Of a DNA stretch of 64,000 bases, positions 3,215 through 47,778 are shown piece after piece. The notes beneath the pieces were generated by a model that saw nothing but the letters and a program-made list of their open reading frames with translations, had not been told where the DNA came from and searched no databases. A program made the translations under genes and the position numbers. The stretch covers positions 5,113,827 to 5,177,826 of the forward strand of contig OY848928.1 of assembly GCA_963693285.1 (NCBI GenBank). The letters are read 5' to 3'. Source of the stretch: Xestospongia muta. Taxonomy: Eukaryota > Porifera > Demospongiae > Haplosclerida > Petrosiidae. Positions within the stretch are counted from its first letter, which is position 1. Each line of letters begins with the position of its first letter.

Positions 3215-6200
3215 ATGATTAACTATGTCTTTCTTCTTATTCTCTCACTTGTTGCCATGACAACAAGTCAATGCAGTAACTTTACACTGTCTGATGCCAC
3301 AGATGCTCTCAATGGCATTGTACCAAGTGGAGATGGATCCCAAAACAATGTTAATATTTTAAATTGGCATATTGATTGTCTGGCGGCCTCATCCACAAAG
3401 AACCGATACACATGGATCACCTTCACTGCCCAATACACTAATAAAGGAGCAACACAAATGAGTCAAGTTGTTGTCCCTTGTTCAAGTAATGTATGGAATG
3501 TTTATAGTAATTCTGGATATCATAGAATTGTCTCAAGTACTGACTATAACCAGCTGTTTTCTAGTCCGACAAGAACTGATTGTTATCGTTGTTCTAACTT
3601 TGATCATACTGATCCCTTGACTCTTTGTGCTGGTAAGAGGTTTTAAGTGGTAGAAGGATGAGAATTAATGGTTTGCTTGGGATGGTATTGAACAGTAGAA
3701 TGATATATAGTTTAAGAATAAATACAAATGTCTGTATGAAAAGCATATTGTAACGATTGTAGATTTACAAGTCGCCAACACCTGTTCTAATTTGTATAGT
3801 GAATTGTACATTTTCCTATCTCCACTAAGAAAAGGACAAACCACAAAAAGATTATTGATTCTTTTGCTGTGGCTGTTAAAAATACCAATACCAGATATTA
3901 TAACAATAGTATTACTGTACTGTTATAGTGTCCACAACATAATAACTAATAGCCATATTTTTCTTCCTTTATCTTAGAGTGTGATTCCAGCTGTAATCAA
4001 GGAACTATGCAATGTACAAGTGATAATGCTGCTGGTTGTTGTAATTATTATGATAATAACAGATGTGTGATACAATGCGGTAGCAACAAACATCCTGATG
4101 AAAACTTTGACTGTGTGTGTGACATGTTTTACATTGGATCCCAATGTGATAGTAAGTTATGAATGGATGGAGGGAACAACTGATGAATAAATAGACTGAT
4201 GGATTGACAGATAGATGGATGGACAAACAGAATAGAAGATTAGAATAACTCTGATGCACTGATATGTATTATAGAGATGATGACTAATAATATCTGTAGC
4301 TGTCATCTTAACACTAATGTCCTTGTAACCGTCAACATAATCTCAACAATTTAACAAGTAAAATTAGTTTTTAGCTATTTTAAGAACAGGCCATCGTGAC
4401 AGCCTTGTGGAATAGCCTCTAGTGAACACATACAAACACAAACATAGTAAACTTACATTTAGTTCTTTTCCCAACTGTAACTCCCTTATTAAATTATCCT
4501 TTGTAATTCAACTGTTGTTGGGAAATGAAATTGTAATATAATGTCACACTACAGTCTCATGAGATTTATATTATAATAACAAAGTACCAAAACGTAGTAG
4601 TTCACTTATATGAGCATTCTCTCATCTCTATAGCCTGCAACATCCAATCTACTGATTGTAAGAATGAAGGTGTAACTAATAACATTTCTTGTTCCTGTCA
4701 ATGTAACTCTACTGGTTACACAGGTCTGACCTGTATTGAGGATATCAATGAATGCAACCTTACCAACCCATGTCAACATGGAGGATCTTGTTATAATACT
4801 AATGGTAGCTATATATGTGAGTGTGCTATTGGTTACACAGGAAATGATTGTCAAACTAACATTGACGATTGCCTGATGTCTTCTTGTTGGCACAATGCTA
4901 CATGCATTGATGGAGTGGCTAATTACACATGTGACTGTCTTCCTGGTTATACTGGAAAGAATTGTGAAACAGACATTAATGAATGTGAATCAAATCCGTG
5001 TCAAAATGGAGGTACTTGTATAGATGAAGTTAATAAATACACTTGTAATTGTACTGGTGGTTACAATGGTCCGACCTGTATCGAGGATATCGATGAATGT
5101 AACCTTACCAATCCATGTCAACATGGAGGATCTTGTTATAATACTAATGGTAGCTATATATGTGAGTGTGCTATTGGTTACACAGGAAATGATTGTCAAA
5201 CTAACATTGACGATTGCCTGATGTCTTCTTGTTGGCACAATGCTACATGCATTGATGGAGTGGCTAATTACACATGTGACTGTCTTCCTGGTTATACTGG
5301 AAAGAATTGTGAAACAGACATTAATGAATGTGAATCAAATCCGTGTCAAAATGGAGGTACTTGTATAGATGAAGTTAATAAATACACTTGTAATTGTACT
5401 GGTGGTTACAATGGTCCGACCTGTATCGAGGATATCGATGAATGTAACCTTATCAATCCATGTCAACATGGAGGATCTTGTTATAATACTAATGGTAGCT
5501 ATGTATGTAAGTGTGCTACTGGTTACACAGGAAATGACTGTCAAACTAACATTGACGATTGTCTGATGTCTCCTTGTCGGCACAATGCTACATGCATTGA
5601 TGGAGTGGCTAATTACACATGTGACTGTGTTCCTGGTTATACTGGAAAGAATTGTGAAACAGACATTAATGAATGTGAATCAAATCTGTGTCAAAATGGA
5701 GGTACTTGTATAGATGAAGTTAATAAATACACTTGTAATTGTACTGGTGGTTACAATGGTCCGACCTGTATTGAGGATATCAATGAATGTAACCTTACCG
5801 ATCCATGTCAACATGGAGGATCTTGTTATAATACTAATGGTAGCTATGTATGTAAGTGTGCTACTGGTTACACAGGAAATGACTGTCAAACTAACATTGA
5901 CGATTGCCTGATGTCTCCTTGTTGGCACAATGCTACATGCATTGATGGAGTGGCTAATTACACATGTGACTGTCTTCCTGGTTATACTGGAAAGAATTGT
6001 GAAACAGACATTAATGAATGTGAATCAAATCCGTGTCAAAATGGAGGTACTTGTATAGATGAAGTTAATAAATACACTTGTAATTGTACTGGTGGTTACA
6101 ATGGTCTGACCTGTATCGAGGATATTGATGAATGTAACCTTACCAATCCATGTCAACATGGAGGATCTTGTTATAATACTAATGGTAGCTATGTATGTGA

Positions 6201-8983
6201 GTGTGCTACTGGTTACACAGGAAATGACTGTCAAACTAACATTGACGATTGTCTTATGTCTCCTTGTTGGCACAATGCTACATGCATTGATGGAGTGGCT
6301 AATTACACATGTGACTGTCTTCCTGGTTATACTGGAAAGAATTGTGAAACAGACATTAATGAATGTGAATCAAATCCGTGTCAAAATGGAGGTACTTGTA
6401 TAGATGAAGTTAATAAATACACTTGTAATTGTACTGGTGGTTACAATGGTCTGACCTGTATCGAGGATATTGATGAATGTAACCTTACCAATCCATGTCA
6501 ACATGGAGGATCTTGTTATAATACTAATGGTAGCTATGTATGTAAGTGTGCTACTGGTTACACAGGAAATGATTGTCAAACTAACATTGACGATTGTCTG
6601 ATGTCTTCTTGTTGGCACAATGCTACATGCATTGATGGAGTGGCTAATTACACATGTGACTGTCTTCCTGGTTATACTGGAAAGAATTGTGAAACAGACA
6701 TTAATGAATGTGAATCAAATCCGTGTCAAAATGGAGGTACTTGTATAGATGAAGTTAATAAATACACTTGTAATTGTACTGGTGGTTACAATGGTCCGAC
6801 CTGTATCGAGGATATCGATGAATGTAACCTTATCAATCCATGTCAACATGGAGGATCTTGTTATAATACTAATGGTAGCTATGTATGTAAGTGTGCTACT
6901 GGTTACACAGGAAATGACTGTCAAACTAACATTGACGATTGTCTGATGTCTCCTTGTCGGCACAATGCTACATGCATTGATGGAGTGGCTAATTACACAT
7001 GTGACTGTGTTCCTGGTTATACTGGAAAGAATTGTGAAACAGACATTAATGAATGTGAATCAAATCTGTGTCAAAATGGAGGTACTTGTATAGATGAAGT
7101 TAATAAATACACTTGTAATTGTACTGGTGGTTACAATGGTCCGACCTGTATTGAGGATATCAATGAATGTAACCTTACCGATCCATGTCAACATGGAGGA
7201 TCTTGTTATAATACTAATGGTAGCTATGTATGTAAGTGTGCTACTGGTTACACAGGAAATGACTGTCAAACTAACATTGACGATTGCCTGATGTCTCCTT
7301 GTTGGCACAATGCTACATGCATTGATGGAGTGGCTAATTACACATGTGACTGTCTTCCTGGTTATACTGGAAAGAATTGTGAAACAGACATTAATGAATG
7401 TGAATCAAATCCGTGTCAAAATGGAGGTACTTGTATAGATGAAGTTAATAAATACACTTGTAATTGTACTGGTGGTTACAATGGTCTGACCTGTATCGAG
7501 GATATTGATGAATGTAACCTTCTTACCAATCCATGTCAACATGGAGGATCTTGTTATAATACTAATGGTAGCTATGTATGTGAGTGTGCTACTGGTTACA
7601 CAGGAAATGACTGTCAAACTAACATTGACGATTGTCTTATGTCTCCTTGTTGGCACAATGCTACATGCATTGATGGAGTGGCTAATTACACATGTGACTG
7701 TCTTCCTGGTTATACTGGAAAGAATTGTGAAACAGACATTAATGAATGTGAATCAAATCCGTGTCAAAATGGAGGTACTTGTATAGATGAAGTTAATAAA
7801 TACACTTGTAATTGTACTGGTGGTTACAATGGTCTGACCTGTATCGAGGATATTGATGAATGTAACCTTACCAATCCATGTCAACATGGAGGATCTTGTT
7901 ATAATACTAATGGTAGCTATGTATGTAAGTGTGCTACTGGTTACACAGGAAATGATTGTCAAACTAACATTGACGATTGTCTGATGTCTTCTTGTTGGCA
8001 CAATGCTACATGCATTGATGGAGTGGCTAATTACACATGTGACTGTCTTCCTGGTTATACTGGAAAGAATTGTGAAACAGACATTAATGAATGTGAATCA
8101 AATCCTTGTCTAAATGGAGGTACTTGTGTAGATGAAGTTAATAAATACACTTGTAATTGTACTGGTGGTTACAATGGTACCAATTGTGAATTGGACATTG
8201 ATGAATGCAGTACAGGTAATCCCTGCTTCAATGGAGGAACTTGTCGGAATAATCCTGGTGGATTCAATTGTTCGTGTCAAGGTAGTTGGACAGGTGACAC
8301 ATGTGAAACTTGTGTAATAAGTGATTGTTTTCAACCAATGTGTGATGGTCCATCTACTAACTGCCTACAGTGTAATGCTGACTTCTCTTTAGTCAATGGA
8401 CAATGTAGTAAGTTACAATAGAACACATCTAAGATACATCACAACCTGATTAGGAGTTGGATATGTGCCCTCATAAAGAGGATGTCCCTTTTAATCTGGA
8501 CAGTAATGAAGCTAATATCTAGGATGTCTTAGCTTTCTCTTTGCATATAATAATATTTATTGCACCTGCTCATATTTAATGAAGTTGAAAAAATTTTCCC
8601 TTGTAGTTTCTTGCAACATCAAAGATTGTGTACTCTGTATCATAAAGGATGTGTGTAAAACATGTAATAATAGCTATGATCTCAATGACAGTGGGACTTC
8701 ATGTACTCCGCCATTTCTTACGCTACCTCCTCCTGAACCAACTAGAGATAACAGATCATCAAATAATACAGGAACAATTATCGGTAAGACTCTTCCTCTG
8801 TTTGTCTGTTCAGTTGATCCATTTATTTCTTGTATATATATAGGTATTGTAATTGGTTTTATAGTTCTACTGGTTACTATAGCAATAATCATTGTGGTAA
8901 TTATTGTTATACTCGGAAAAATTAATAGTCAAAAGCCACCTACTTATAATGTTAAGACACCAAAGCCAGAGGACAAAGAGTAA
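3215..8983 (+). CDS. multi-EGF gene A: single-pass membrane protein with 31 cbEGF repeats
   Basis: Five exons: 3215-3632, 3978-4151, 4634-8407, 8607-8783 and 8844-8983, giving 1,560 aa. Residues 1-18 are a signal peptide. Residues 19-139 form the family's N-terminal six-Cys domain ([21 protein letters not shown]). Exon 2 encodes a Cys-rich module with a CC pair. Exon 3 encodes one atypical EGF, ten copies of an EGF triplet (115 aa, 345 bp) and a final EGF, then the CVISDC...C-x-x-C module. Exon 4 repeats that module (CNIKDCVLC...CKTC) and adds a Pro/Thr stalk. Exon 5 encodes a ~26-residue hydrophobic helix and a short tail containing KPPTYNV. All introns are phase 1. The EGFs carry the [DN]-x-[DN]-[DE]-C calcium and C-x-D-x4-Y-x-C-x-C hydroxylation patterns. 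Cell-surface adhesion or recognition is inferred. It is not Notch: there are no LNR or ankyrin segments. Confidence 0.85.
4745..8185 (+). repeat. 345-bp EGF-triplet tandem array in gene A, ten copies
   Basis: Each 345-bp unit encodes three different EGF domains in fixed order: ECNL-type (38 aa), DDCLM-type (38 aa) and ECESN-type (39 aa). Copies are nearly identical in DNA. A larger period is superimposed: 5221-6600 (four units, 1,380 bp) is repeated at 6601-7983. I saw no difference between the two blocks except a 3-nt insertion near 7521, which adds one Leu in ECNLLTNPC. The next ~120 bp continue the match. Confidence 0.9.
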
Positions 8984-9017
8984 GCTATATGAAGTACTGT
9001 GATGTGCTTTATCACTC

Positions 9018-9064
<47 letters not shown>

Positions 9065-9266
9065 TATTATCTTAACCAAGGTTTGCAATATTTAATTCAC
9101 ATCTTAAATGTCTTCTAGTCCAATTTAAAATAGCCTTTTATTATTTTTTTGTACGAACAATTTTTGTATCATGTGACACTAAATTAGAACAATTAAACAT
9201 TTTTGTATTTTAATTCTAATAATTTAATTTTTATTGAATGACTTATAATTATTACAATATTGTATT
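8984..9266. other. 3' flank of gene A with (CT)n(CA)n microsatellite
   Basis: No coding sequence is seen. A CT run followed by a CA run lies at about 9017-9062. The same order occurs after gene B at 14042-14192, where the CT run is much longer. The flank aligns base for base with 14013-14390 outside the microsatellite, showing that it belongs to the duplicated unit. Confidence 0.7.
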
Positions 9267-9925: not shown

Positions 9926-10001
9926 CATGGCATTTAAATATACGGAATGTAAACAAACTATGTCTTTCAGTTTACGGTGTAGGCGTAGTTATAAAAATAA
10001 A

Positions 10002-11420: not shown

Positions 11421-14012
11421 ATGATTAACTATGTCTTTCTTCTTATTCTCTCACTTGTTGCCATGACAACAAGTCAATGCAGTAACTTTACACTGTCTGA
11501 TGCCACAGATGCTCTCAATGGCATTGTACCAAGTGGAGATGGATCCCAAAACAATGTTAATATTTTAAATTGGCATGTTGATTGTCTGGCGGCCTCATCC
11601 ACAAAGAACCGATACACATGGGTCACCTTCACTGCCCAATACACTAATAAAGGAGCAACACAAATGAGTCAAGTTGTTGTCCCTTGTTCAAGTAATGTAT
11701 GGAATGTTAATAGTAATTCTGGCCATCATAGAATTGTCTCAAGTACTGACTATAACCAGCTGTTTTCTAGTCCAACAAGAACTGATTGTTATCGTTGTTC
11801 TAACTTTGATCCTACTGATACCTTGACTCTTTGTGCTGGTAAGAGGTTTTAAGTTGTAGAAGGATAAGAATTAATGATTTGCTTGGGATGGTATTGAACA
11901 ATAGAATGATATATAGTTTAAGAATAAATACAAATGTCTGTATGAAAAGCATATTGTAACAATTGTAGATTTACAAGTTGCCAACACTTGTTCTAATTTG
12001 TATAGTGAATTGTACATTTTCCTACCTCCACTAAGAAAAGGACAAACCACAAAAAGATTATTGATTCTTTTGCTGTGGCTGTTAAAAATACCAATACCAG
12101 ATATTATAACAATAGTATTACTGTACTGTTATAGTGTCCACAACATAATAACTAACAGACATATTCTTCTTCCCTTATCTTAGAGTGTCATTCCAGCTGT
12201 AATCAAGGAACTATGCAATGTACAAGTGAACATGCAAGTGGTTGTTGTAATTATTATGATAATAACGCGTGTGTGACACAATGTGGTAGCAACAAACATC
12301 CTGATGAAAACTTTGACTGTGTTTGTGACATGTTTTACATTGGATCTCAATGTGATAGTAAGTGATGTGGATGGATGGATAGACAGATGGACAAGTTGAT
12401 AGGTAAATGGATGAATAGAATGATTAGAATAACTTAATTGCTCTGATATGTATTATAGAGATGATATCTATATCTGTCATGTTTACGCTAATGTTGTTGT
12501 AACTGTCAACATAATCTCAACAATTTAACAAATAAATTAATTTTTAGCTATTTTAAGAACAAACCAGTAACCAATATGACAGCCTTGTGGAATAACCTCT
12601 AACAAACACATACACAAACAGATAGTAAACTTACATTTAGCTCTTTTTCCCAACTGTAGCTCTCTTATTAAATTATCCTTTGTAATTCAACTGTTGTTGG
12701 AAATGTAATTGTAATATAATGTCATACTATAGTCTCATGAGAATTATATGATAATAGCAAAGTTTAAAGTATAGTCTACTTATATGGCCATTGTCTCTCT
12801 TCTCTAGCCTGCAACATCCAATCTACTGATTGTGAGAATGGAGGTGTAGCTAATAGCACTTCTTGTTCCTGTCAATGTAACTCTACTGGTTACACAGGTC
12901 TGACCTGTATTGAGGATATCGATGAATGCAACCTTACCAATCCATGTCAACATGGAGGATCTTGTTATAATACTAATGGTAGCTATGTATGTGAGTGTGC
13001 TACTGGTTACACAGGAAATGATTGTCAAACTAACATTGACGATTGTCTGATGTCTCCTTGTTGGCACAATGCTACATGTATTGATGGAGTGGCTAATTAC
13101 ACATGTGACTGTCTTCCTGGTTATACTGGAAAGAATTGTGAAACAGACATTAATGAATGTGAATCAAATCCATGTCAAAATGGAGGTAGTTGTATAGATG
13201 GAGTTAATAAATACACTTGTAATTGTACTGGTGGTTACAATGGTACCAATTGTGAATTGGACATTGATGAATGCAGTACAGGTAATCCCTGTTTCAATGG
13301 AGGAACTTGTCGGAATAATCCTGGTGGATTCAATTGTTCGTGTCAAGGTAGTTGGACAGGTGACACATGTGAAACTTGTGTAATAAGTGATTGTTCTCGA
13401 CCAATGTGTAATGGTCCATCTACTAACTGCCTACAGTGTAATGCTGACTTCTCTTTAGTCAATGGACAATGTAGTAAGTTACAATAGAACACATCTAAGA
13501 TACATCACTACCTGATTAGGAGTTGGTTATGTGTCCTTTTAAAGAGGATGTCCCTTTTAATCTGGATATCTTAGTTTTCTCTTTGCATATAATGTTATTT
13601 ATTGCACCTGCTCATACTTAATGAAGTTAAAAAATTTTTCCCTTGTAGTTTCTTGCAACATCAAAGATTGTGTACTCTGTATCACAAAGGATGTGTGTAA
13701 AACATGTAATAATAGCTATGATCTCAATGACAGTGGGACTTCATGTACTCCGCCAATTCTTACGTTACCTCCTCCTGAACCAACTAGAGATAACAGATCA
13801 TCAGTTAATACAGGAGCAATTATCGGTAAGACTGTTTGTTGGTTTTTGTTGATCCATTTATTTCTTGAATAGGTATTGTAATTGGTTTTATAGTTCTACT
13901 GGTTACTATAGCAATAATCATTGTGGTAATTATTGTTATACTTGGAAAAATTAATAGTCAAAAGCCGCCTACTTATAATGTTAAGACACCAAAGCCAGAG
14001 GACAAAGAGTAA
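11421..14012 (+). CDS. multi-EGF gene B: single-pass membrane protein with 4 cbEGF repeats
   Basis: Exons 11421-11838, 12184-12357, 12808-13473, 13649-13825 and 13873-14012 encode 524 aa. The gene is a close paralogue of gene A with identical exon lengths except exon 3, which is 666 nt rather than 3,774 nt. The difference of 3,108 nt is exactly nine 345-bp triplets plus the 3-nt insertion. The product has the signal peptide, six-Cys N-terminal domain (residues 19-139), Cys-rich exon, one atypical EGF, one EGF triplet plus the terminal EGF, two C-x-x-C modules, a Pro/Thr stalk ([11 protein letters not shown]), a transmembrane helix (about residues 479-504) and a tail with PPTY. Intron 4 is only 47 nt. 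It is probably a surface protein with the same partners as A but a much shorter stalk. Confidence 0.87.
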
Positions 14013-15059: not shown

Positions 15060-15189
15060 AGCTATATACAAGATGAACAATAGTTCAAATAAAAGTAGGC
15101 GTGGCTAAATACAATTAATTTACCACTAAGTGGGTGTGCCCATATTTATCTATCTGCCTTCATTAAACAGGTAGAGGTTTAACTTCATT
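15060..15189. promoter_or_regulatory. divergent promoter region between MFF-like and RAB20-like genes
   Basis: Only 130 bp separate the two ATGs, which face away from each other. Any core promoter for both genes must sit here or overlap the first exons. No TATA box is obvious. Confidence 0.5.
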
Positions 15190-15430
15190 ATGGCGACTGC
15201 TGCAGGAGCAGCTAAAGCTAAAACGTGAGTGGCAGTCCTTTATGACGTTACGTGGATGTCATGTATTCGTATTTAGAGATATTAAACTGATAATATTAGG
15301 AGATACAAATGTTGGTAAGACTTGTTTGATTCAACGATACCTCACTGGGGAGTTTGCTGAGACAGTTACTGTGAGTGATGTTATTAGATATATTGTAGAT
15401 ATGATTTTAAGTAAAGTTTTTATACTGTAC

Positions 15431-15467
<37 letters not shown>

Positions 15468-16917: not shown

Positions 16918-17048
16918 ATTACTATTTTTGTTTTGCCTCTTCAAACAGAATATTAAAAATTTTCTTAATGCTATGTAAAAACTTTGTATTTGATTAACAC
17001 AATAAATAAAAAAACGTTAATGTTAAGACATAGTCCATGTTAATCTTT

Positions 17049-31458: not shown

Positions 31459-34400
31459 TTATTGGCAGTTGTCTCCAAATTCAGCATCATACGTTGATAA
31501 GTCACTAGACCATTTGTCAATATAATTATTAAAAGTAGATATAAGATCATCTTGAGTAGGATCTGTGGTAAATGGATGAATGAAATATAGATAAACAAAT
31601 GGATGGATGAATGGATGAATAAATGAATGGATGGATAAATGGACAGATGAACAGATAGATGGATGAATGAATGGATGGATGAATGGACAGATGAACAGAT
31701 AGATGGATGAATGAGTGGATGGATGAATGGACAGATGAACAGATAGATGGATGAAGTATGCTCTTACATACCTGGTTCTAAATTGATATTACTAAAATCT
31801 TCTATAGCTATTGATGGCTTTAATATTTTAGCATATTGCTGCCAAACTGTCTGATCATTGATGACATTTTCTATATTATTATACCACTCATCCACAATAC
31901 CTTTATAACAAAGACAATAATCTCACTGTAATATCATTAACTTACTATCAAATATTGGTTCCTGTGAGTTTGAGGGGAATGTAAGACCACGTTGTTTTGC
32001 TTCCTCCAACCAAATAACTCTAAACTTTTCTTGTTCAACCAATGCAGCTCTCCATTGTTCTTCATTAGACAAAGTGGGATCCTAAAATCATAATCCACTT
32101 CATTTGTATATGCCTTCTTTTATACTTACCTGGGGCACTATCTTAGGTAGAGACAGACCACATGTTGTTGCTTGCTCTCTCCATATTTCTAACTGACAGT
32201 AAAACTTACACATACTAGATTGATAGTCTATAAAAGAAAAAATAATGTTTTCATGTTAAAAGTGAGTATTTGATATACCTGTACCAGGGCATTGAGTTGA
32301 GCAATCTTTTTCTACAATAAAAAAAAAAAATTCAAAAATATCTACATTATAACTCACCACAAATTGTAGCATTATTGAGACTGTATCCATTATCACAAAT
32401 GTTACAAATTTTACCAGTATATCCAATGGAACAGTTACAGGTATAACTACCTACTCCATCAACACAAGTGCCACCATTTTCACAAGGATTAGGATCACAT
32501 TCATTGATATCAATTAAACAGTTTTCTCCAGTATATCCAATGGAACAGTTACAGGTATAACTACCCACTCCATCAACACAAGTGCCACCATTTTCACAAG
32601 GATTAGGATCACATTCATTGATATCGATTAAACAGTTTTCTCCAGTATATCCAATGGAACAGTTACAGGTATAACTACCGACTCCATCAACACAAGTGCC
32701 ACCATTTTCACAAGGATTAGGATCACATTCATTGATATCGATTAAACAGTTTTCTCCAGTATATCCAATGGAACAGTTACAGGTATAACTACCCACTCCA
32801 TCAACACAAGTGCCACCATTTTCACAAGAATTAGGATCACATTCATTGATATCGGTTAAACAGTTTTCTCCAGTATATCCAATGGAACAGTTACAGGTAT
32901 AACTACCTACTCCATCAACACAAGTGCCACCATTTTCACAAGGATTAGGATCACATTCATTGATATCAATTAAACAGTTTTCTCCAGTATATCCAATGGA
33001 ACAGTTACAGGTATAACTACCGACTCCATCAACACAAGTGCCACCATTTTCACAAGGATTAGGATCACATTCATTGATATCGATTAAACAGTTTTCTCCA
33101 GTATATCCAATGGAACAGTTACAGGTATAACTACCAACTCCATCAACACAAGTGCCACCATTTTCACAAGGATTAGGATCACACTCATTGATATCGATTA
33201 AACAGTTTTCTCCAGTATATCCAATGGAACAGTTACAGGTATAACTACCGACTCCATCAACACAAGTGCCACCATTTTCACAAGGATTAGGATCACATTC
33301 ATTGATATCGATTAAACAGTTTTCTCCAGTATATCCAATGGAACAGTTACAGGTATAACTACCCACTCCATCAACACAAGTGCCACCATTTTCACAAGGA
33401 TTAGGATCACATTCATTGATATCGATTAAACAGTTTTCTCCAGTATATCCAATGGAACAGTTACAGGTATAACTACCCACTCCATCAACACAAGTGCCAC
33501 CATTTTCACAAGGATTAGGATCACATTCATTGATATCGATTAAACAGTTTTCTCCAGTATATCCAATGGAACAGTTACAGGTATAACTACCCACTCCATC
33601 AACACAAGTGCCACCATTTTCACAAGGATTAGGATCACATTCATTGATATCGATTAAACAGTTTTCTCCAGTATATCCAATGGAACAGTTACAGGTATAA
33701 CTACCTACTCCATCAACACAAGTGCCACCATTTTCACAAGGATTAGGATCACATTCATTGATATCAATTAAACAGTTTTCTCCAGTATATCCAATGGAAC
33801 AGTTACAGGTATAACTACCGACTCCATCAACACAAGTGCCACCATTTTCACAAGGATTAGGATCACATTCATTGATATCGATTAAACAGTTTTCTCCAGT
33901 ATATCCAATGGAACAGTTACAGGTATAACTACCAACTCCATCAACACAAGTGCCACCATTTTCACAAGGATTAGGATCACACTCATTGATATCGATTAAA
34001 CAGTTTTCTCCAGTATATCCAATGGAACAGTTACAGGTATAACTACCGACTCCATCAACACAAGTGCCACCATTTTCACAAGGATTAGGATCACATTCAT
34101 TGATATCGATTAAACAGTTTTCTCCAGTATATCCAATGGAACAGTTACAGGTATAACTACCCACTCCATCAACACAAGTGCCACCATTTTCACAAGGATT
34201 AGGATCACACTCATTGATATCGATTAAACAGTTTTCTCCAGTATATCCAATGGAACAGTTACAGGTATAACTACCCACTCCATCAACACAAGTGCCACCA
34301 TTTTCACAAGGATTAGGATCACATTCATTGATATCAATTAAACAGTTTTCTCCAGTATATCCAGTACCACTGCAATTACATGTGTAATTATCAGGAGCAG

Positions 34401-35180
34401 ATAATAATACACATGATCCTCCATTTTGACAAGGTATATCTCGTAGACAGATATCAGTCAGATCACATCCATTACATGTAGCATTAGCAACTTCACCAGG
34501 ACCACAGGTATAGTTACAGACTGTATAGTATAGGATCAATATATTAGATATATACTAGTTTACTTACCACATGTAAAGTTAGTATCAACATTAGCAATGT
34601 AGTTAGTTGGACATGATGTAATACACATATTATCAAGACCAAAGAATGGACAACAGTCATTAATGGATGATACACAACTTCCTTGTCCAATATTCCTACA
34701 AGTTGCACTACACTCTATTTATAAAATAATAATAATATCAACAATTATAATAATAATGGTAACTTTACCTAAACAATGATTAGAATCACCAAAAAGATTT
34801 TCAGGTACACAAGTAAAACAGTCAGTTCTTAGCATTGGATTTGAGGGAGGAGTACCAAAACCATGATTAGTTACTGCACTCCATGTACCACTTGGACACT
34901 CTAATTGAAAGTGTTGTGTTTGTGAAAGTTGTCCACTCTTAGGAGTAAATGTAGCTATAATAGATACTCTACGGTATCTATCTTTAGTTGATCCTTGAGC
35001 AAGACAAGTATACTGATATGATAATACAGTAGGATTATATGGTCTTCCTCCTGAATCTTCATGAAGAAGTAAATCATTCAACTCTCTCTCTATATCATCT
35101 ACTGTAGGTATAGGACAGTTGCTTTGAGCAGTCACAAGTAATGGAAAGTAAAGAAATAAAAAGCAAATCCACAGCTTCAT
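31459..35180 (-). CDS. multi-EGF gene D: secreted protein with 17+1 EGF repeats
   Basis: Exons in transcript order: 34769-35180, 34568-34714, 32358-34520, 32279-32311, 32130-32227, 31946-32081, 31772-31900 and 31459-31562, giving 1,073 aa. ATG at 35180 follows an acceptor-like TTGAATAG. The N-terminal six-Cys domain (to residue 137), Cys-rich exon and first EGF ([13 protein letters not shown]) are nearly identical to gene C, and so is the C-terminal domain (QWRAALVEQEKFRVIWLEEA, QTVWQQYAKILKPSIAIEDF, ending GDNCQ). The core differs: 17 EGFs of the form [20 protein letters not shown] with almost no protein variation. There is no transmembrane helix, so the product should be secreted. Only 156 bp separate it from the stop of gene E. 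The intact frame makes it the cleanest model for gene C. Confidence 0.9.
32395..34345 (-). repeat. 114-bp EGF array of gene D with a 798-bp higher-order repeat
   Basis: There are seventeen units. The third base of the Val codon in DGVG varies T, C, G or A, and its order along the plus strand is T C G C T G A G C C C T G A G C C. The run T-G-A-G-C-C(-C) therefore occurs twice, seven units (798 bp) apart; a rare CACTCATTG variant at about 33183 and 33981 shows the same spacing. Confidence 0.9.
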
Positions 35181-35336: not shown

Positions 35337-37684
35337 TTAATGACATTGATCCCCAAAGTTATCATCAAATAACGACAAATCTTTAGACCATTTGTAGATG
35401 TAGCTCTGAAATGTGGCAGAAGTATTTTCTTCTACGACAAAGAAACGATCAGTTAATAAAGAAAGCAATGTTCTTTACACTTACTTAATTTGTTATACAA
35501 ATTACTAAAATCTTGAAATGATATTGATGAATCAATTGTTATAACATAATTCTGCCACGCTATGTGATCTTTGAGAGCGTTTTTAACGTCTTTTTTCCAT
35601 TGACGTACAAGATCTGTTTAATTAAAAACAAGATAACAAAACATTTATCAATTCTTTTTGAATTCTCTCTACATAGTAATTAAAGTCAATAATAATTAAT
35701 TTTAAACTCTGACTATTGCTTACCTCTTGTAGTCCCAGTCTTTTCACGACTAGTGGAAAATTTTCCTTTAACTTGCTTCATCCATATACCTTGTAGTTTC
35801 TTTCGTTCAGTTAAAGCTGCTCTCCACTGAGCTTCTTCAGACAGACTGAGATCCTATTTAAATTATTTAAAAAACTAGTCACTATTATAACAAACTATTA
35901 TTGTATTCCATGCCTGAGGGTTTATATTAGGTAGAGATAATCCACACTCAATTGTTCTCTGTCTCCATCGAGCCAATTGACAATAAAAGAGACACATATT
36001 GAACTGAAATCCAGCTTCAATAAAATAATAAAAAAATATTTTCCATTTTAAAATAACTAACCTTTACCATCACATGAACCTATACAGTCGTCTTCTAAAT
36101 GACGGAATTAAATTTAAAATTCTTTGTCTCTTTAATTGACTTACCACAGGTTCCAATTTTGTTAAGACGATATCCATCATCACATACATTACATTTACCA
36201 ATATCACTGGAACATGTCTGACAGTTTGGTAGCAAGCACTGGCTACAATTTGAACTTGACCAAGACCCGCTACAAACACATATGTAACTGTTGACACCAT
36301 CAACACAAGTGCCACCATTTTGACAAGGGTTAGGATCACAATCATCAATATTTGTCTGACAATTTTCTCCAGTGTATCCATTGGAACAGATACAGTTGTA
36401 ACCAGCTACTCCATCTACACAAATGCCACTATTTTCACAAGGATTAGAATTACAATCATCAATGTTTGTTGTACATTTAGTTCCAGTATATCCATTGGAA
36501 CAGACACAATTATAACTGTCTACTCCATCGACACATGTACCGTCATTTTGACAAGGATTAGGATCACAATCATTAATGTTTACTGTACAATGAGTACCAG
36601 TATATCCATTAAAGCAAATACAGCTGTAACTGTCTACTCCATCGACGCATGTACCACCATTTTGACAAGGATCAGGATCACAATCATCAATGTTTACTGT
36701 ACAATGAGTACCAGTATATCCATTAAAGCAAATACAGCTGTAACTGTCTACTCCATCGACGCATGTACCTCCATTTTGACAAGGATCAGGATCACAATCA
36801 TTAATGTTTACTGTACAATGAGTACCAGTATATCCATTAAAGCAAATACAGCTGTAACTGTCTACTCCATCGACGCATGTACTGCCATTTTGACAAGGAT
36901 TAGGATCACAATCATTAATGTTTACTGTACAATGAGTACCAGTATATCCATTAAAGCAAATACAGCTGTAACTGTCTACTCCATCGACGCATGTACTGCC
37001 ATTTTGACAAGGATTAGGATCACAGTCATCGATATCAAATTGACAATGTTTTCCAGTGTATCCTCTGGAACATTTACATGTATAGCCATTAATACCGTCA
37101 ATACAAACACCATTTTGACAATTATGTTGCAAGCAATCATCAATGTTACTTTCACAGAATGTCCCAGTGAATCCACTATCACATAAACAATAGCTACAGT
37201 TAGTAATATTTGAAAATCCATTGACACAGGTAAGATTACATTCTATATAGACAAGTAATAAGACATAAGTTAAGAGTTATAAAGATTTAAACTAACTGTC
37301 ACATTGTTCTCCTATCCAATAAGGTACACACTGGCAGTCGAAATTATTATCAGGTTCTTTGTTTACTCCACACTGTTCTGTGCATTGGTTGTTGTCATAG
37401 AAACTGCAGCAGTCCGTACTATCAAAATAGTTTCCAATGCATAATGAATTAGCATCTTCTTTAATGCATTTCTCTGGACATTCTAGCAAAAGTTAATGTA
37501 TTTAATTGCTTTGTGAGTTATAATGTTTAATGACATTCTGTACATTGTGTCAACCAAATGTTCTTCAGAATATATCAATAATTCATACAAACACGTTTTG
37601 TTGTTAGGGTTTATTAAATAAACTATAGAATGAAGCTAGCAAGTTGTTGCATTATTACATGGAGTACTAAATATTTATTATATA

Positions 37685-37755
<71 letters not shown>

Positions 37756-37774
37756 ATATATATATATATATATG

Positions 37775-37847
<73 letters not shown>

Positions 37848-38960
37848 TATATGTATATATATATATATATATTAACTTTTTGAACAAGTAGTATTTACTA
37901 TAAACCTAATCAGTTGTATATTAGAAAAATCTACAAGTAATCAGTTCAAAGTTATTGGACACACGCACAAGAAACCTTACACTAGCTAATTATACTATTA
38001 ATCAGATAATATAAACAGTAGCCATGCCATGGTTTATATTTGTGTTAGCATGAAAATTAAATTTAAAAAAATAACAACTACTATTAGACAATGTTATACC
38101 ACAGAAACACATACAACTTTTACTGTTATGTAAGCTGATTGTACTCTCTAACCTCAGAAATGAAACTTCAAAGCACACGAACATTGTTATGATATGAGAA
38201 GCAATGTAGTTTAGCTGGTTGCTAGACAACTAATTACATTATTGACCAACTATTTGAGTAATTTTTGTTTGGCAAACCATCAGACTAACATCGTTTGCCA
38301 GGACTTTTTTGGACAATTACATGGTTACCAGACATGTGATTCACAAAGGGGATTGGATTGCTATGGCAACATAATTTTGTAATGTTTCAACATGAATGCA
38401 CAATATTAATTATTTATATTTAGCTTCCTTTGAAGTAGAGCAGTATTCTCAACGATGTATGTATTCGATACCCTTGAGATCATCTTACCTATACAGTGAT
38501 GGATCGGATCACCTGCTGTAGGTACGCCTACAGTTGGAGCTTCAAATCCTTGACAGAATGAACAGTTTGTCTTAGTGTCATTTGCAGATCTTCCAAGAGT
38601 ACTAAATGTAAGCTGAAATGCTTCATCAAATGGCTGCAATTTCCATCCCTCAAACTGTAGACAGTAAAGATCAAGATATGCTGTTTGATTCTCTTCAGGT
38701 TTGTCAGAAGCAACAAACACAACAGTGATAGTTGAAAACTTCCATCGTCCTCTCTCATTGCTAGCTGCAAGACAATTAATGTAGAACTCACGTACTTCAA
38801 ATGTTACATTAATATCGTTAGCATAACCATCATTTATAATATTAAAGGTGATAACATCAGAGATTGTCGGTACTTGACACTGTGCTGTAACAACAGTGTT
38901 AGGATTCATCAGCAGAAGAGATACAACAGTTGCAAAGATAGCAGCTACTAAGTTCATCAT
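35337..38960 (-). CDS. multi-EGF gene E: secreted protein with 8+1 EGF repeats
   Basis: Exons in transcript order: 38489-38960, 37297-37482, 36145-37242, 36062-36094, 35914-36014, 35724-35853, 35485-35613 and 35337-35431, giving 747 aa. The signal peptide is about residues 1-26. The six-Cys domain shows [18 protein letters not shown] and CIG. Exon 2 contains [11 protein letters not shown], like gene A. Exon 3 has one atypical EGF, CQNGVC, seven DPNPC-type EGFs (one with CENSGIC) and the CLLPNCQTC...CNVC module. The C-terminal domain has [27 protein letters not shown] and ends GDQCH. Exon 5 ends CAG|GCATGG, implying a GC-AG intron of 60 nt; a GT donor 18 nt downstream would instead leave a 42-nt intron and also keep the frame. 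No membrane segment follows the EGFs, so secretion is inferred. Confidence 0.88.
37677..37871. repeat. (TA)n microsatellite in intron 1 of gene E
   Basis: About 195 bp of nearly uninterrupted TA, with a few TG and AC breaks. It lies in the 1,006-nt intron 37483-38488, which otherwise shows no features. Tyr-Ile open frames here are artefacts of the repeat. Confidence 0.97.
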
Positions 38961-39228: not shown

Positions 39229-42200
39229 TTATATATTTGGACATTGAGAGGGAACAGCTTCATTAGCAAATTGTTTAAAAATACTATTCCAATAGTTAAT
39301 GTATGTCTTGTAAAGATCTTCTGGATTTCCATTAGCTATGAAATAAATAAATAAAATTATAAATAGCAAGTAATTTAATTAGATAAAGAAACACATAATA
39401 TACTATAATATACTATAATATACTAGAATATACTAGAATATAGACGAGTGATTGTTAGCATGTAAATAGTGGAACAAAAAGTCAATACATTTTACTACTA
39501 ACCAGTAAACTTTGAATATATAACAAAAGATAAAAAATAATTATTTTTTGTTATATGAGATGCTTTATGTGCTAATTCTTAAATTAGTTATATTTGACTC
39601 TGTTTCCATAGCAACAAAGCACCACTATATACAGCATTATGTATGCATATATAATTAACTTATTATCTTAGTGATATATCATTGCCTTGTTTAGAAACAC
39701 AGTTATACAATCTATTAAACATTATGATGATCAGCAATGCATACCAGTGTCCAATTTAGGTACAGGTGACAAAGTAACACCGAGTTCTGACTTATAATAT
39801 TTGATCCAGGTATCGAGACTGTCCAATGCTTGTTTCAAACTTTTTCTCCATTCTCGTACAAGTTTTTGAAAGTCTATGTTTAATAAAGTACAAGAATATA
39901 ATACACATTACCATGTATGCATACATGATATGGACAGGTGCATGTAGATGTACATGTATATTTACATGTATAGGTGCATTTACATGTACATGTACATCTA
40001 CATGTATGTATATGTACTGTAGGTCACCAGCACCCAAAACCTTTTATAGTATGCGATGACTAAAACATTAGCAAAGACAGAATTAATTAAGGCTGGGCGA
40101 TTTGTTTGATAACCAAACCAATGTAATCACACATGGGATTTACTGGTGATACCATGTAAATGTCTACCCACGTACTAACCCCTCCTATATATGTGCATAC
40201 ACCTATTTTTGTATTATATAATGTGTGTGTGTACAAAATCATATACAATATTAACAAGTAATAATGTACTGTTTTGATGTTTCTCTGTAGTTGCTTCTTC
40301 AACAAGAGTTAATCCACTAATGGACGCTGATGCTCTTTTCTCCCATTGTCTTTGAAGCTTCTTGTAACAATCATATCGTTTTTTGAAACTCTTGTATGGA
40401 GTATACTTATGTCTGTTAATTTTACATTCATCAGGTATAAGACCACACTGGCGAGATAAATATTTCCATCGACATAAATACTTATCTATTAAATGATAAT
40501 AAAATTAAGATTATGGAGATGTATTTATAAGAATGGTTCACTGTTAAGAGTTAAATGAGTTAAACAATGCTCAAATAAGACTGTCTATATATTTAACCCT
40601 TGTTGAAATATAGTCCTGTTTATTAAAAGTCATATGATATATACAGTGAGTGGGTAGGTCTATTTGATACAGTCAACAAATTATAAATAAAATATCTAAG
40701 ACCACTTTATCAATTACTATAATTATTTAAGTCTTTAGATGTCTCTTTAAACATGATATTATCTACCCCCTCAAACTGACCCACCTAAATGTGGGTATCA
40801 TCTTACAAAGCTAACAGCTCTTATTTGGCAACTCAAAAATTAAGTTCCAGTAAACTAAGGCTAGCCAAGTAACACTATAAACTTGGCTAACAAATAAGTG
40901 GGTGTTCAAAGAGTCAGAGCATTTCATGAGCTTCCAAGCAAGTGTTTAGACTACTCTTGTGGTAAACTAAGTATCCTATTGCTTACATTCCAGTCTAGAG
41001 AAACTATTTGGGAAGTTATAAGTGTATGGACAGTAGTGCTCACTGATATACAAGTGTTATCTTAATTACTACAGTTTATATTGACACACCTAAACTAAAA
41101 TTAGATGATTAAAACAATATAATATAATAATATAATATATATAACAATGTTTATCAATTTAGGAATTAGGATTAAAATGAAATTATAAATTAACATCAAT
41201 TTGATTACCAAACTAGAGCAGTTTTGGAATATCAGAAGAGACTAATTACTTAATTATATTTACACTTCATGTATATTGTTTGTTAAATTATGTTATTGAA
41301 CGGGCTGTGGTTTGTAGTGTATACACCCTTAACATATACATATATCATACTACCATAACATATATTATACTACCTTAACTTATATCATACTATTACTTAT
41401 ACCATACTACCATAACATATATCATACTACTGTAACATATATCATACTACTGTAACTTATATCATACTACTGTAATATATATCATACTACTGTAATATAT
41501 ATCATACTACTGTAACTTATATCATACTACTGTAACATATATCATACTTCCTTAACTTATACCTGGAATATTATGTCATGTAGAGTACAAAGTCATTAAT
41601 TAGAGTAAGTATGTGTATTTATATTACCTGGATCACTAAGACATAGTAAATCAATGTCTTTGACTACAATAAGAAAAAATGTTTTATTTCAACGTTTGTC
41701 AATCCATCCATCCATCCATCCATCCATCCATCCATCCATCCATCCATCCATCCATCCATCCATCCATCCATCCATCCATCCATCCATCCATCCATCCATC
41801 CATCCATCCATCTATCCATCCATCCATGTCATGGACTATTTTATATCTTACCACAGCCATTTTTCATATTAGGTTTATAACCTGAAATGCAGATGTTACA
41901 AACTCCATCTTTTAGACTACAATTGACACAATTATCAATAACACAATTACTGCACTGAGAACCAGAAAAGTTTGGAAGACATGTACATGTAAAACTGGCA
42001 ACTCCATCAGTACAATTCCCTCCATTTTGACAAGGATTAGGATCACAATCATTAATATTAGTATTACAATCATCTCCTGTATAACCTTTGTCACATTGAC
42101 ATGTAAAACTACCATTCCCAAAGTCTGTACAATTTCCGTTAACGCATGTCACAATCTCACAGATGGAAACTAGAGAGAGAGAGAGAGAGAGATGGAGGGA

Positions 42201-42763
42201 GAAGGATGGAATAGAATTAAAATGTAAGGGAGACAACTTACCACATTTTCCATTTCTTATAACAAATGGACTATCACATTCGTTGCAGATGCCCAGTGTT
42301 GTGGAACAGTTCTTACAATTTTTTAACTCACATGCGTCACAGGTTCTTCCAGAAAAGTTATCAAAACAATCACAAGTGAAATTGTTAACACCATCAATGC
42401 AGACACCATTTTGACAAGGATTGGGTAGGCAATCATTGATCTTTGTATCACAAAAGGCTCCAGTGAAATCAGGATCACATTGACAAGTGAAGTTATTTAT
42501 TCCATCAATACAAGTACCGTTATTGCAGTTTACAGAGGCACATTCATCAATATTATTATCACACAGAGTACCATTATAGCCGGGAAAACATCTACATTGA
42601 AAACCATTTACTTGATCTATACATGTACCATTCACACAAGGATCGTTTGCACATTCATTAATATCTACTTCACATCCAATGCCTGTGTATCCAGGAGCAC
42701 AGTTGCAGAAACAAAAATCATTATTTAATGTGCCTCCATTTTGACAAGATATATCACATACTG

Positions 42764-42862
<99 letters not shown>

Positions 42863-44177
42863 GATAAAAGCATTACACTAATTAATGTTATTTAGTCTAG
42901 GTATCTATTAAAAGGATGGGAGGTCTACTCTTCAAAGAAGACAAACGAAAAGGTACTTTAATTGTACATTAAGTACAACACTGAAAGCGTGCAACCTTGT
43001 TTTCATTTATCTTAATGTTTAGTCTACTTGGTAGTCTAAGGGTGGATGTTGCAATTAAAAGAAATATTACCGAGTGAGTATGACTTGTGTGGGAAGCATA
43101 TATTCTCACAGTATCATATATACTGAGTAAGGATGTTAGCATAACATAAGGGAAACATTAATATCAAATATAGGAATTTAGTACATTTTCTTTATAAAAT
43201 TTAGGCAAGGTAACATTGTTAACACTGTTTTTAAACAACACTAAATTGCTGATTGTAGGCAATAATATTATCCATGAAATTCTAACCTGTGCAGTTTGGT
43301 CCAGTGAAACTGTTATTGCAGATACAGCTAAAGTTGGTTGCTGGGGTGGCAATTCTTCTATGACTGCATTGATCAGTGCATAAGCCGTTCTCGTAGAAGT
43401 TACAACAAACGTCAATTGTGAGACCTAGGCAAAAACTTAAACCTCGATTAAAACAAGTTGGACTACATACTAAAGAAAGGAAGGGAAACATATTTCATTT
43501 ATTTACAAATGATACAACGGGAAAGTATGAGCAATTTGTATTTTATAATTATATCTAACAGGAAAATACCATTGAAGGGCGTATGCAATAATTAATAAGA
43601 CAATTAAACTAATATAAAAATGTTGATATACAATAATGTTGTGGTAATTACATTATATTAAACACATCAGTGGTTGTTCTTATTAGAACTCACCAAAGCA
43701 ATGGGTTTTACTATCAAAGTTTGGCATAGCAATAGGTGGTACAGAGCTTTCTATACCACAATTACCACAATCAGTTCTGGGGTTGCTGAGATTTAAAGGT
43801 GCATTAGCATCAATACTAAGACTCTGAACATTGGAAAGTGGATTAGTAATCCATTTATAATCAGATACTTGACATGTGAGTTCGTGATAAGCCCTACAAC
43901 CAGCATCAGTTGTACAAGCACTGTCCTGGAAGGTCACATTAGTCTTAAATTGGACAATAACCGTCGCATGTCGAAAACGATTCCTCATCGTTCCAACAGA
44001 AAAACATGAGAAAGTGAAGTTGAGCAAAGTGACTTGTACATTTTGATTGGCAATAGTGTTAACTAGAGAATCCAGGAGAGTCGAAATGTCTGTTTCGGTA
44101 GGTTGGACGCAGTTGCGGGCCTCAGCCATAAATGATAACAAAGTTACACAGATCAGAAGCACCGTAAAAGATGTCAT
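39229..44177 (-). CDS. multi-EGF gene F: secreted protein with two EGF/C-x-x-C blocks
   Basis: Exons in transcript order: 43694-44177, 43287-43469, 42242-42760, 41852-42169, 41628-41663, 40270-40485, 39745-39873 and 39229-39335, giving 663 aa. Signal peptide about residues 1-20; six-Cys domain with [21 protein letters not shown]. Exon 2 has [10 protein letters not shown]. The EGF part is split over two exons: the first carries one atypical EGF, three EGFs and CELKNCKNC...CNEC; the second carries two EGFs and CVIDNCVNC...CNIC. This repeated layout suggests internal exon duplication. In the C-terminal domain, the two exons that are separate in C, D and E are fused (40270-40485). The domain ends PSQCPNI and is more basic than in the other paralogues. 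Long introns hold ATCC, AG and AT-rich repeats. Confidence 0.87.
41330..41560. repeat. ~22-bp AT-rich tandem repeats in a gene F intron
   Basis: Copies of ATATCATACTACTGTAACTT, with variants, run for about 200 bp inside the 1,142-nt intron 40486-41627. The rest of that intron shows nothing I can name. Confidence 0.85.
41703..41826. repeat. (ATCC)n microsatellite in a gene F intron
   Basis: About 31 copies of ATCC, almost perfect, lie directly beside exon 4 of gene F (which ends at 41852). On the minus strand this is GGAT, the same tetranucleotide family seen in introns of A, B, C and D. Confidence 0.98.
42763..42859. repeat. (AG)n microsatellite abutting a gene F splice acceptor
   Basis: About 97 bp of AG. 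On the minus (coding) strand it is CT and runs right up to the acceptor at 42761, so it forms the polypyrimidine tract of exon 3. A shorter AG run (42171-42192) does the same for exon 4. Confidence 0.95.
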
Positions 44178-45205: not shown

Positions 45206-47778
45206 TTAACTACAACGGTCATTGGCTATTCTGTTCCGGAACTCGTCAGATATTTGTAGCCATTGTGCTCTAATATTATTATATACTTCTTGTGACTTTG
45301 TGTCTAAATTGAGGAAAATGAATAGCTATGAAATTAACCAAGACGTAAATGTAAGCTCATACCGATATCAGCTAAAATGTTTGTAAGATTGAAATTAGGA
45401 AAGTCGTTATCCACTGTTTTTATATGCTGTAGCCATATCTCCAAATTATCAACCCAAATGGAAACTGCAGCTTTCCAGGCAGAAAAGGAGTTACTGTCTA
45501 TAAAATAAGTAAAAGTGGATGCAATAGAAAACTTTACACTTACTTCTGTCAGCTAAGTCAACATTCAAACCAATGTTGGTTGCACCATTGTGCCAAGCTC
45601 CCTCGGAAATGTTTGCAGCCGTCAAAGCAACAGTGTACTGATCAAGGACAGACAAACCTGGGTCCGGTCTCATGATTGCAGGAATGGTGAGATTACACTT
45701 AATAGAATCACTTCTCCAAACTAACAATTCACAGAAGTAATTGCATATATTGATCAAGTTTTTATCTGTTGGGTAATAGAAGTGTGTGATATATGTCAGT
45801 ATCAACATCATACCATCCACCCACACACAGACACACTTGTCTAGAGTGTCTTAAGGTGGGGTTATACCACAATAAATGGACTGTTAGCAAACAATCAAAT
45901 TAATAGTATTATAGCATTCATTACTATAGTAATTTTAATGGTCAATATTGTGATGACTTTGATCACCTATTTGCCAAAAGATTAGCCAGGGAAAATTCAG
46001 GATGTTCTCAAAAGAGTTTGTAAACATAAGTATGTGAATGAACACATCAAGGCTATGGGCTATACCACTACATAATGTAATCATATCCCAGGCATATTCT
46101 GAGAACTAGAAGTCATAATTCCATTCTATTACTTAACAAGTATATAATTTACAACAGTGATTTTACAAAACGAACCTGTTAATCGAGGACAAGCAGAACA
46201 GTTGAGAACTACATAGGAAGAAAATTATAATTACAATAATATATATTAGCGATAGGAGCTTACTGCATTTTTCTGTTATACGATCAACCGTGAAACCATC
46301 AATACACTCTAAACATAATCCCTTTGTTTCGGTGGAACATCTTTTACAGTTAGGAAGGTCGCAATTCTCGCAACGATCTCCACTAAAGTTATCTCTACAT
46401 TCACAGACAGCTGTACCATTTACCACTACACAAGTACCGCCATTCTGACAATTTATATTATTGCACAAGTCAATTTCACAAGTACTGCCAGTGTAGTTGG
46501 GAGGACAAGTGCATGTAAAATTAGGATATGTTCCAGGAGTACAAGTGCCCCCATTTCGACATGGATTAGGATCACATGGATTTAAAGCTATAGAACAGTT
46601 TTCACCAGTGAAACCTGGAAGACATCGACAAGTATACTGTGGGTAGGTACCAGGAATACAAGTGCCCCCATTTTGACATGGATTAGGATCACATGGATTT
46701 AAAGCTATAGAACAGTTTTTGCCAGTGAAACCTCGAGGACATCGACAAGTATACTCTGGGTGGGTACCAGGAATACAAGTGCCCCCATTTTGACATGGAT
46801 TAGGATCACATGGATCTAAAACAGTTTCACACAGTTGTCCAGTTGTTCCTATTGGACAATTGCACATGTTACATTCATCATTAGCAGTACCATTATTTTG
46901 ACAACCGAAAGCACACTCTAAATGGATAGACAAAATCATAAACTCAAATAGCATGGACAGGAGACTCACCGCAAACAAAGTTTGTGGCTGGACTGGCGGA
47001 AAAATTAAGTGGACACTCAACAGCACAACGGTTAACAATGTATACATTACAACATTGACTAGATGAGTCTCCATAACAAAGTGTAAGATTAGCAGCAAGA
47101 CAATCATTAGGACAACCTTGGATAAAGAGAAAAGAACATACACATTATGAAAATCAATGTTACATCTCCAGCCTGTATGTTTATATAAAAGAACTTGCTA
47201 GCTCCTTATCCAATGCGTATATAATATAAGTGGACATTTTATAAACAAAATATATACATGAACTCACGTCTGCAGTGTCGAACGACATCATCACCTTTAG
47301 TGGGGTCAAGAGGAAAAACATCGTGATTTCGCGAGTTGCATCTCGAGCAGTCCGTCAATGTATTGTTGTTGGCTAGAAGTAATGCATTAGAAGCATCTGT
47401 TACCTTGTTGTAGCTCTTGATTAATCCTAATTTCCAAAATCTTCCAGAACCCACAGGTTGATCGCATACTATATCAACTTGTGCTAGTACAGAGCCAGTA
47501 TTCCCAGGCTCGCCAGTGAAGCGAACAGTGTAAGTTGCTTGACGATGGTAGCCTCGAATGTTGCCTACAGATAGACAGCTGATATTAAAGCTTTCTATGA
47601 TTACATTTGCAGGAGATCCATCGCCTGGTTGAAGCTCCGAGACGCTATTGAGTATGGTCGTTAGTTCAGAACGTGTAGGCAAGGAAGAACAGCCTTCTAA
47701 ATTCACATTTTGAGCTCCACAGAATGAATAGTGAGCCAAAAGGCTAAGACAAAATAACAGCACCTTTAGGAAACCCAT
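45206..47778 (-). CDS. multi-EGF gene G: secreted protein with 4+1 EGF repeats
   Basis: Exons in transcript order: 47268-47778, 46970-47116, 46264-46917, 46176-46208, 45544-45765, 45363-45497 and 45206-45303, giving 599 aa. The signal peptide is about residues 1-22. The six-Cys domain has CLSVGNIRGYH, LTDCSRC and HCR. Exon 2 has SQCCNVYIVNRC. The EGFs are one atypical, three [18 protein letters not shown] with a PGTYP loop, and one NINCQNGGTC, followed by CDLPNCKRC...CLEC. Exon 4 is short (NCSACPRLTG), as in C-F. The C-terminal domain contains CNYFCELLVW, SAWKAAVSIW and RAQWLQI and ends NDRCS; two of its exons are fused, as in gene F. It is the most diverged paralogue of the minus-strand series. 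Confidence 0.87.

Follow-up and report, generated by a model that had tools for sequence, protein, structure and literature searches.

In the parts of PMC4302439 available to us, the adhesion G-protein-coupled receptors (GPCRs) of Amphimedon queenslandica combine 7tm_2, GPS, HRM, Ig, EGF, fn3 and SRCR domains. Another kind of receptor locus, in which tandem multi-exon 5' cassettes precede one constant region, is exemplified by chelicerate sDscam and the vertebrate clustered protocadherins; for sDscam, the accessible portion of PMC4835542 reports cassette promoters and isoforms that were demonstrated experimentally. Here we describe a stretch of 64,000 nucleotides from the sponge Xestospongia muta (contig OY848928.1, our C12, positions 5113827-5177826; hereafter the window), in which seven genes, A to G, open with the same cysteine-rich N-terminal domain (N-domain). 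Together with a second Cys-rich exon behind it, this domain forms a two-exon head delimited by phase 1 junctions, and copies of the head occur elsewhere in the genome. We consider it probable that the head is a secreted, disulphide-braced recognition module, carried at the outer tip of surface and secreted proteins and alternatively spliced in receptors encoded on contig C5.

Loci headed by the domain on contigs C5 and C9 share with the Amphimedon receptors a seven-transmembrane (7TM) region of the 7tm_2 type, HRM or HRM-like exons and Ig domains, with GPS and EGF in addition on C5. They differ in the head: what we have of PMC4302439 deals with Pfam-recognised domains only and mentions neither an unrecognised head nor tandem head cassettes. 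Two arrays on C5, of five and nine cassettes, have the clustered-protocadherin or sDscam layout, with tandem 5' cassettes and a single constant region. Their cassettes consist of head, Cys module and EGF instead of Ig or cadherin domains, their constant part is a 7TM receptor, and they are known from reading frames and splice sites, unlike the experimentally established promoters and isoforms of sDscam. The C5 layout thus resembles the sDscam 5' cassettes, but the loci are not members of the sDscam family.

A two-exon head in the window genes

Each of the genes A to G begins with a signal peptide and an N-domain of about 115-150 residues, and all seven domains lie where an earlier note on this DNA, made from the letters of the window, had placed them (Table 1). 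The pattern described in that note is confirmed: the six Cys, the Trp after Cys3 and the Thr after Cys1 are invariant in the seven-sequence alignment, and [DN]-C-x-x-C recurs in all seven. Its observation that the module closes at a phase 1 donor holds throughout, as a phase-1 GT ends exon 1 in each of the seven genes, one codon and one base past the last Cys (the end in gene E was counted by hand, the other six were located exactly), and also closes every one of the 50 distinct N-domain exons that were read in fetched loci. The core of the domain is strongly conserved, with the stretches CLAQ, VSIIATF and HFQLEC, and the variable positions lie mostly outside it. The N-domains of A and B are 96% identical. 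Since single-sequence searches of the 158 Mb genome assembly link A with D (E 3.8e-8), A with G (E 9.6e-8), E with G (E 3.4e-4) and F with G (E 0.0027), F being the weakest link, the kinship of the window domains goes beyond chance.

A further exon, missing from the list in the earlier note, separates the N-domain exon from the EGF exon in all seven genes. It measures 147-186 bases, always a multiple of three, is in phase 1 at both ends, and encodes a module with 8 or 10 Cys that include an adjacent Cys pair; its boundaries were all counted by hand from printed flanks. Because every window gene carries this Cys-rich exon directly behind the N-domain exon, the head spans two exons.

Copies and architectures across the genome

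Searching the assembly, which comprises 28 contigs, recovered about 71 N-domain exons, those of the window genes included. Most are in tandem clusters, on C1 (33.1-33.2 Mb), C2 (0.44-0.49 and 4.28-4.35 Mb), C5 (1.0-1.34 Mb), C9 (4.74-4.85 Mb) and C12, and broken fragments exist besides. The count is made up of 50 D-like exons and 21 others from searches with A, D, E, F and G; from the 90 rows of the D search the 50 strongest, near-complete ones were kept and 40 weaker, partial or other-subfamily rows dropped, and one of the 71 listed exons (C9:4813897) matched in part only. A search with the D-type second exon places the exon-2 module 16-114 bp downstream of the N-domain match in all 50 D-like exons and finds it in 10 of the 21 other copies. 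In the remaining 11 it was read in A, B, E, G, C9:2932137, C2:8930105 and four G-like loci on C2, and it was not found behind the N-domain exon at C9:4804280, so that the module accompanies the N-domain in 70 of 71 exons overall. Three of the four C2 G-like loci have Tyr in place of one exon-2 Cys. One of these, C2:441833 (L051), lacks the start of the module, and given this loss the copy may be decaying.

The head is attached to several kinds of protein. In the window it precedes EGF repeats followed by a transmembrane (TM) segment in genes A and B, or by a secreted tail in genes C to G. On C5 it is followed by EGF, many Ig, EGF, HRM, GPS and 7TM exons; on C9 by HRM, Ig, more HRM-like exons (by eye) and 7TM; and on C2 by Ig (by eye), FN3, TM and a Tyr-rich tail. 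At C9:4795166 it stands before an LDLa-like exon (20.5 bits, under the cut-off of 24.1) and SRCR (32.6, above the cut-off of 26.1), in another architecture before EGF and SRCR-like repeats (16.7 bits, sub-cut-off and assigned by pattern), and at C2:8930105 it is joined directly to a TM segment with a Tyr-rich tail (by eye).

Several of the named parts exceed their Pfam cut-offs. The 7tm_2 model passes its cut-off of 20.6 bits in two exons per locus (46.4 and 28.9 bits in L064, a C5 array locus; 34.2 and 57.6 in L066). GPS scores 43.3 (cut-off 22.5) in L064, HRM 30.0 (26.2) and EGF 25.4 (21.5), and single exons reach 44.9 for Ig_3 (30), 45.6 for fn3 (25) and 32.6 for SRCR (26.1). The HRM of the C9 locus falls just below its cut-off, at 26.0 bits versus 26.2, and the GPS motif of L065, the other C5 array locus, was recognised by eye. 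At the GAIN position, one open reading frame (ORF) per locus in L064 and L066 had no Pfam match at E<=0.01. By the 7tm_2 scores, domain-headed loci on C5 and C9, as distinct from the window genes, have a secretin/adhesion-type 7TM region. An EGF-only family is rejected because the domain also caps Ig, SRCR, HRM and 7TM genes. What the earlier note had described as a seven-gene EGF family is a family of about 71 exons with heads on EGF, Ig, FN3, SRCR, LDLa-like, HRM and 7TM architectures, and its picture of a self-contained EGF surface or matrix system is not supported, the head being mobile among many stalks; genes A to G would be the EGF-stalk branch of the head family.

Near a G-like Ig/FN3 locus on C2, an ORF at 432175-433125 on the minus strand (L068) resembles, by eye, a receptor L domain with a furin-like Cys-rich piece after it.

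Tandem head cassettes on C5

The first C5 array holds five cassettes (1201364-1206955) and the second nine (1238395-1248750). Each unit consists of an exon for signal peptide and N-domain, the Cys module and one EGF exon, the spacing is about 1.2 kb, and one intact Ig1 exon lies behind the last cassette of each array. Beyond Ig1, the Ig, EGF, HRM, GPS and 7TM exons are confirmed by Pfam at the locus of the first array and identified at the second by near-identity, by eye. The most likely use of this arrangement is that each cassette has its own promoter and is spliced to the common Ig/EGF/HRM/GPS/7TM part, so that one receptor would be made with alternative heads.

The domain frames and splice sites speak for such use. 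All 14 cassettes keep three open domain frames and have GT or AG at each of their five splice sites, and start and signal peptide are intact in 11. Neutral decay predicts about 9.6 domain-frame stops, conservatively 4.8, in 13 of the 14 cassettes (the omitted one lacks a neighbour of equal length), versus none observed; the probability of zero stops is 7e-5 for the first expectation and 0.008 for the second. The short signal-peptide part, by comparison with the zero stops of the domain frames, has one stop and two lost starts. The spacers measure 321-343 bp, and 11 of 12 contain a truncated copy of the Ig1 start, so the units were multiplied by unequal exchange with one end inside Ig1. In a separate observation, the Ig-GPS-7TM parts of L064 and L065 are nearly identical by eye and their cassette numbers differ (5 and 9); the near-identity indicates that the entire locus was probably duplicated.

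Selection and recombination among head copies

The ratio of nonsynonymous to synonymous substitution rates (dN/dS) among cassettes is 0.98 in exon 1, 0.46 in exon 2 and 0.51 in exon 3, and that of the N-domain among 35 D-like exons genome-wide is 0.82. Among the 12 internal cassettes, nucleotide diversity reaches 0.203 in intron 1, compared with 0.098 and 0.105 in exons 1 and 2, 0.060 in exon 3 and 0.055 in spacers. The four-gamete test, applied to 1275 informative site pairs in exon 1, fails for 563 of them, and the failing share grows with distance, from 0.16 for close pairs to 0.60 for distant pairs, a trend that none of 2000 permutations equalled. This rise with distance identifies the cassette copies as mosaics.

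Several observations weigh against the head as a recognition module spliced alternatively on C5. Architectures, splicing and cassette choice were read from frames and splice sites only. The selection signal is modest: the exon-1 dN/dS has a bootstrap range of 0.60-1.66, its contrast with exons 2 and 3 has P = 0.026, and in 25 D-like copies with three exons read dN/dS is 0.79 for the N-domain, 0.35 for exon 2 and 0.71 for exon 3 (EGF). Diversity is highest in intron 1, not in exon 1, which means that the excess is not limited to coding sites and is explained in part by old shuffled lineages. Two cassettes, at 1206183 (the one that ends the first array) and at 1245602, have lost the usual ATG, and a third, at 1244400, has a stop within its signal peptide; with three of 14 cassettes defective at their beginning, part of the arrays is therefore decaying. 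Finally, the acceptor of the Ig1 relic is intact in 8 of 12 spacers and leads into a reading frame of about 37 residues before a stop, so upstream cassettes might instead yield short secreted proteins.

These last defects lead to the alternative that the cassettes are for the most part remnants of unequal crossing-over, either with one per array in use or with the upstream ones making short secreted proteins that end in the Ig1 relic, a possibility that we take seriously without expecting it. The relics in the spacers do derive the units from unequal exchange, and AATAAA or ATTAAA is present in 4 of the 11 spacers read but absent from the other 7; likewise, the eight intact relic acceptors and three defective starts or signal peptides fit neglect, whereas 4 of the 12 relics have no intact acceptor and not one cassette splice site is broken. 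Neglect also predicts several domain-frame stops where the 14 cassettes have none. Use of the last cassette alone fails in the five-cassette array, as that cassette is the one without the usual ATG; its receptor needs an upstream cassette or an unseen start, or is dead.

Comparison with known domain families

The earlier note knew of no named family with the pattern of the N-domain, and none has emerged: neither Pfam nor searches of PDB sequences and PDB folds gave the domain a confident match. In Pfam, six window domains (B, nearly the same as A, was left out) have no match at E<=10, and a PDB sequence search at E<=10 returned none for the N-domain. When the 117 members of alignment A3 were compared with Pfam at E<=1, matches fell in 16 families with a best E of 0.0018: C6 in 26 members, DUF7467 in 4, Calponin, Zn_ribbon_IFT122 and Big_12 in 2 each, and eleven others in 1 each. 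Four pieces of the exon-2 module searched against Pfam at E<=1 gave two blanks and two sub-cut-off matches, to LNR (E 0.42) and DUF7949 (E 0.035); the module presumably has a furin-like resemblance. Head domain and exon-2 partner thus appear to be uncatalogued in the libraries searched.

C6 (PF01681) is an extracellular, mainly nematode family. It is Cys-rich like the N-domain and shows weak, partial similarity to it around Cys2, Cys3 and the Trp, but ten members rerun scored at most 16.7 bits and missed the cut-off of 27.9. That the N-domain nevertheless belongs, as a strongly diverged member, to a known family, for instance C6 or the cystatin/monellin fold class, seems to us rather unlikely. 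In favour of the second candidate, both N-domain models predict a single helix packed against an antiparallel sheet, as in a cystatin/monellin-like fold; against the first, the similarity stays partial and sub-cut-off in the ten reruns and no window domain among the six searched matched it.

At E<=0.01, 0.05 and 10, searches of a homologue database returned 13, 148 and 17 proteins, respectively; the method relies on shared 5-residue words and may miss distant relatives in other phyla. Some of the proteins listed, which include 120 of the 148, are letter-identical to this genome by eye and others are about 60-80% identical to the nearest query, which indicates that relatives or other individuals carry the domain. 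The literature found on sponge domains, receptor expansions, adhesion GPCRs, cassette loci and C6, including PMC10855680 and PMC12756402, does not name the head domain with its partner exon in the portions accessible to us. The sponge-specific domain of PMC3386278 belongs, according to the section available, to NACHT NTPases, and the 1,783 putative novel clusters mentioned in the same section could include the head domain.

Proposed role of the head

The anatomy leads us to propose a model in which the head, as a recognition module, would bind a ligand on a partner cell's surface, in the matrix or on a microbe, the stalk would set the reach of the head, and the C-terminal part would choose the output, whether G-protein signalling, adhesion or matrix. 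Phase-1 exon shuffling would have mounted the head on its varied stalks and outputs, and tandem duplication with recombination between copies would have produced its diversity. The head may thus be part of how this animal recognises self, neighbours or microbes. That it is instead a cap that serves the structure or folding of matrix and adhesion proteins and recognises no ligand, its copy number reflecting ordinary tandem duplication, we consider quite unlikely: the strongly conserved core, the constant partner exon and the secreted appearance of genes C to G suit a cap, but the domain is carried by many receptors unrelated to one another, those with 7TM regions included, varies largely outside its core, and is kept in many open-frame cassettes before two receptors that a plain cap would not need.

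A bolder form of the recognition model, which we think unlikely, holds that an animal without neurons has protocadherin-like loci with an adhesion GPCR as constant part. Each cell or individual would pick one recombination-shuffled head cassette, built on an undescribed domain, and signal self/non-self or neighbour identity through G proteins, with the EGF genes of the window as adhesion or matrix partners that carry the same heads. Should the head be a recognition module, this lineage would have a large, uncatalogued receptor superfamily united by its head and not by its stalk, which annotation pipelines would scatter into EGF, Ig, SRCR and GPCR genes. It would supply concrete candidates for a long-open problem, the way in which early-branching animals tell self, kin and microbes apart, and possibly a non-neural instance of cassette-based receptor diversity.

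Stalks, tails and other features of the window

The stalks of the window genes differ widely in length, with regular-expression counts of 31, 4, 105, 18, 8, 5 and 4 EGF-type repeats in A to G; repeats exceed the Pfam cut-off in A, C to E, F and G, and those of gene B were assigned by regular expression only. Two alternative C-terminal ends, as previously proposed, are real at the level of ORFs: genes A and B close with a TM segment and a PPxY tail, genes C to G with a helical tail that is rich in Trp and has no TM segment. One tail exon of gene C connects C, D and E by search and matches only these three genome-wide at E<=1; F and G were assigned by eye. The tails of C, E and G, each joined from exons, have no Pfam match above cut-off, and the Trp-rich tail counts as a second uncatalogued domain, of local distribution.

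Table 1. Positions of the parts of genes A to G within the window
Feature	Position	Strand	Remark
Gene A exon 1, signal peptide and N-domain	3215..3632	+	
Gene A exon 2, second Cys-rich module	3978..4151	+	phase 1-1
Gene A EGF ORF, 31 EGF-type repeats	4537..8421	+	regular expression
Gene A last ORF, TM segment and PPTY tail	8516..8980	+	
Gene B exon 1, signal peptide and N-domain	11421..11838	+	
Gene B exon 2, second Cys-rich module	12184..12357	+	
Gene B EGF ORF, 4 repeats	12768..13487	+	regular expression
Gene B TM segment and PPTY tail	13869..14009	+	
Gene C exon 1, signal peptide and N-domain	30676..31120	-	
Gene C exon 2, second Cys-rich module	30476..30622	-	
Gene C EGF region, 86 + 19 repeats	18001..30409	-	two overlapping frames one base apart near 20384
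Gene C secreted Trp-rich helical C-terminal exons	16994..17933	-	
Gene D exon 1, signal peptide and N-domain	34769..35180	-	
Gene D exon 2, second Cys-rich module	34568..34714	-	
Gene D EGF ORF, 18 repeats	32347..34554	-	
Gene D secreted helical C-terminal exons	31462..32255	-	
Gene E exon 1, signal peptide and N-domain	38489..38960	-	end hand-counted
Gene E exon 2, second Cys-rich module	37297..37482	-	
Gene E EGF ORF, 8 repeats	36095..37276	-	
Gene E secreted helical C-terminal exons	35340..36063	-	
Gene F exon 1, signal peptide and N-domain	43694..44177	-	
Gene F exon 2, second Cys-rich module	43287..43469	-	
Gene F EGF ORF, 5 repeats	41841..42872	-	
Gene F probable helical C-terminal exons	39232..40504	-	by eye
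Gene G exon 1, signal peptide and N-domain	47268..47778	-	
Gene G exon 2, second Cys-rich module	46970..47116	-	
Gene G EGF exon, 4 repeats	46166..46915	-	upper end approximate
Gene G helical C-terminal exons	45209..45850	-	by eye

The EGF stalk of gene A is a higher-order repeat of near-identical units of about 345 bases, visible as antisense ORFs every 345 bases. In gene C, the one-base shift of frame (20378-20439) is either an assembly error or a genuine frame break. A gene for a Ras-superfamily GTPase (Ras 65.7 bits) lies at 15167-16917 on the plus strand, between the plus-strand and minus-strand EGF clusters. At 55731-63167 on the minus strand are two big tandem ORFs of 1199 and 1210 residues, which give weak Chlam_PMP matches under the Pfam cut-off and contain, by eye, several hydrophobic stretches near the C-terminus.

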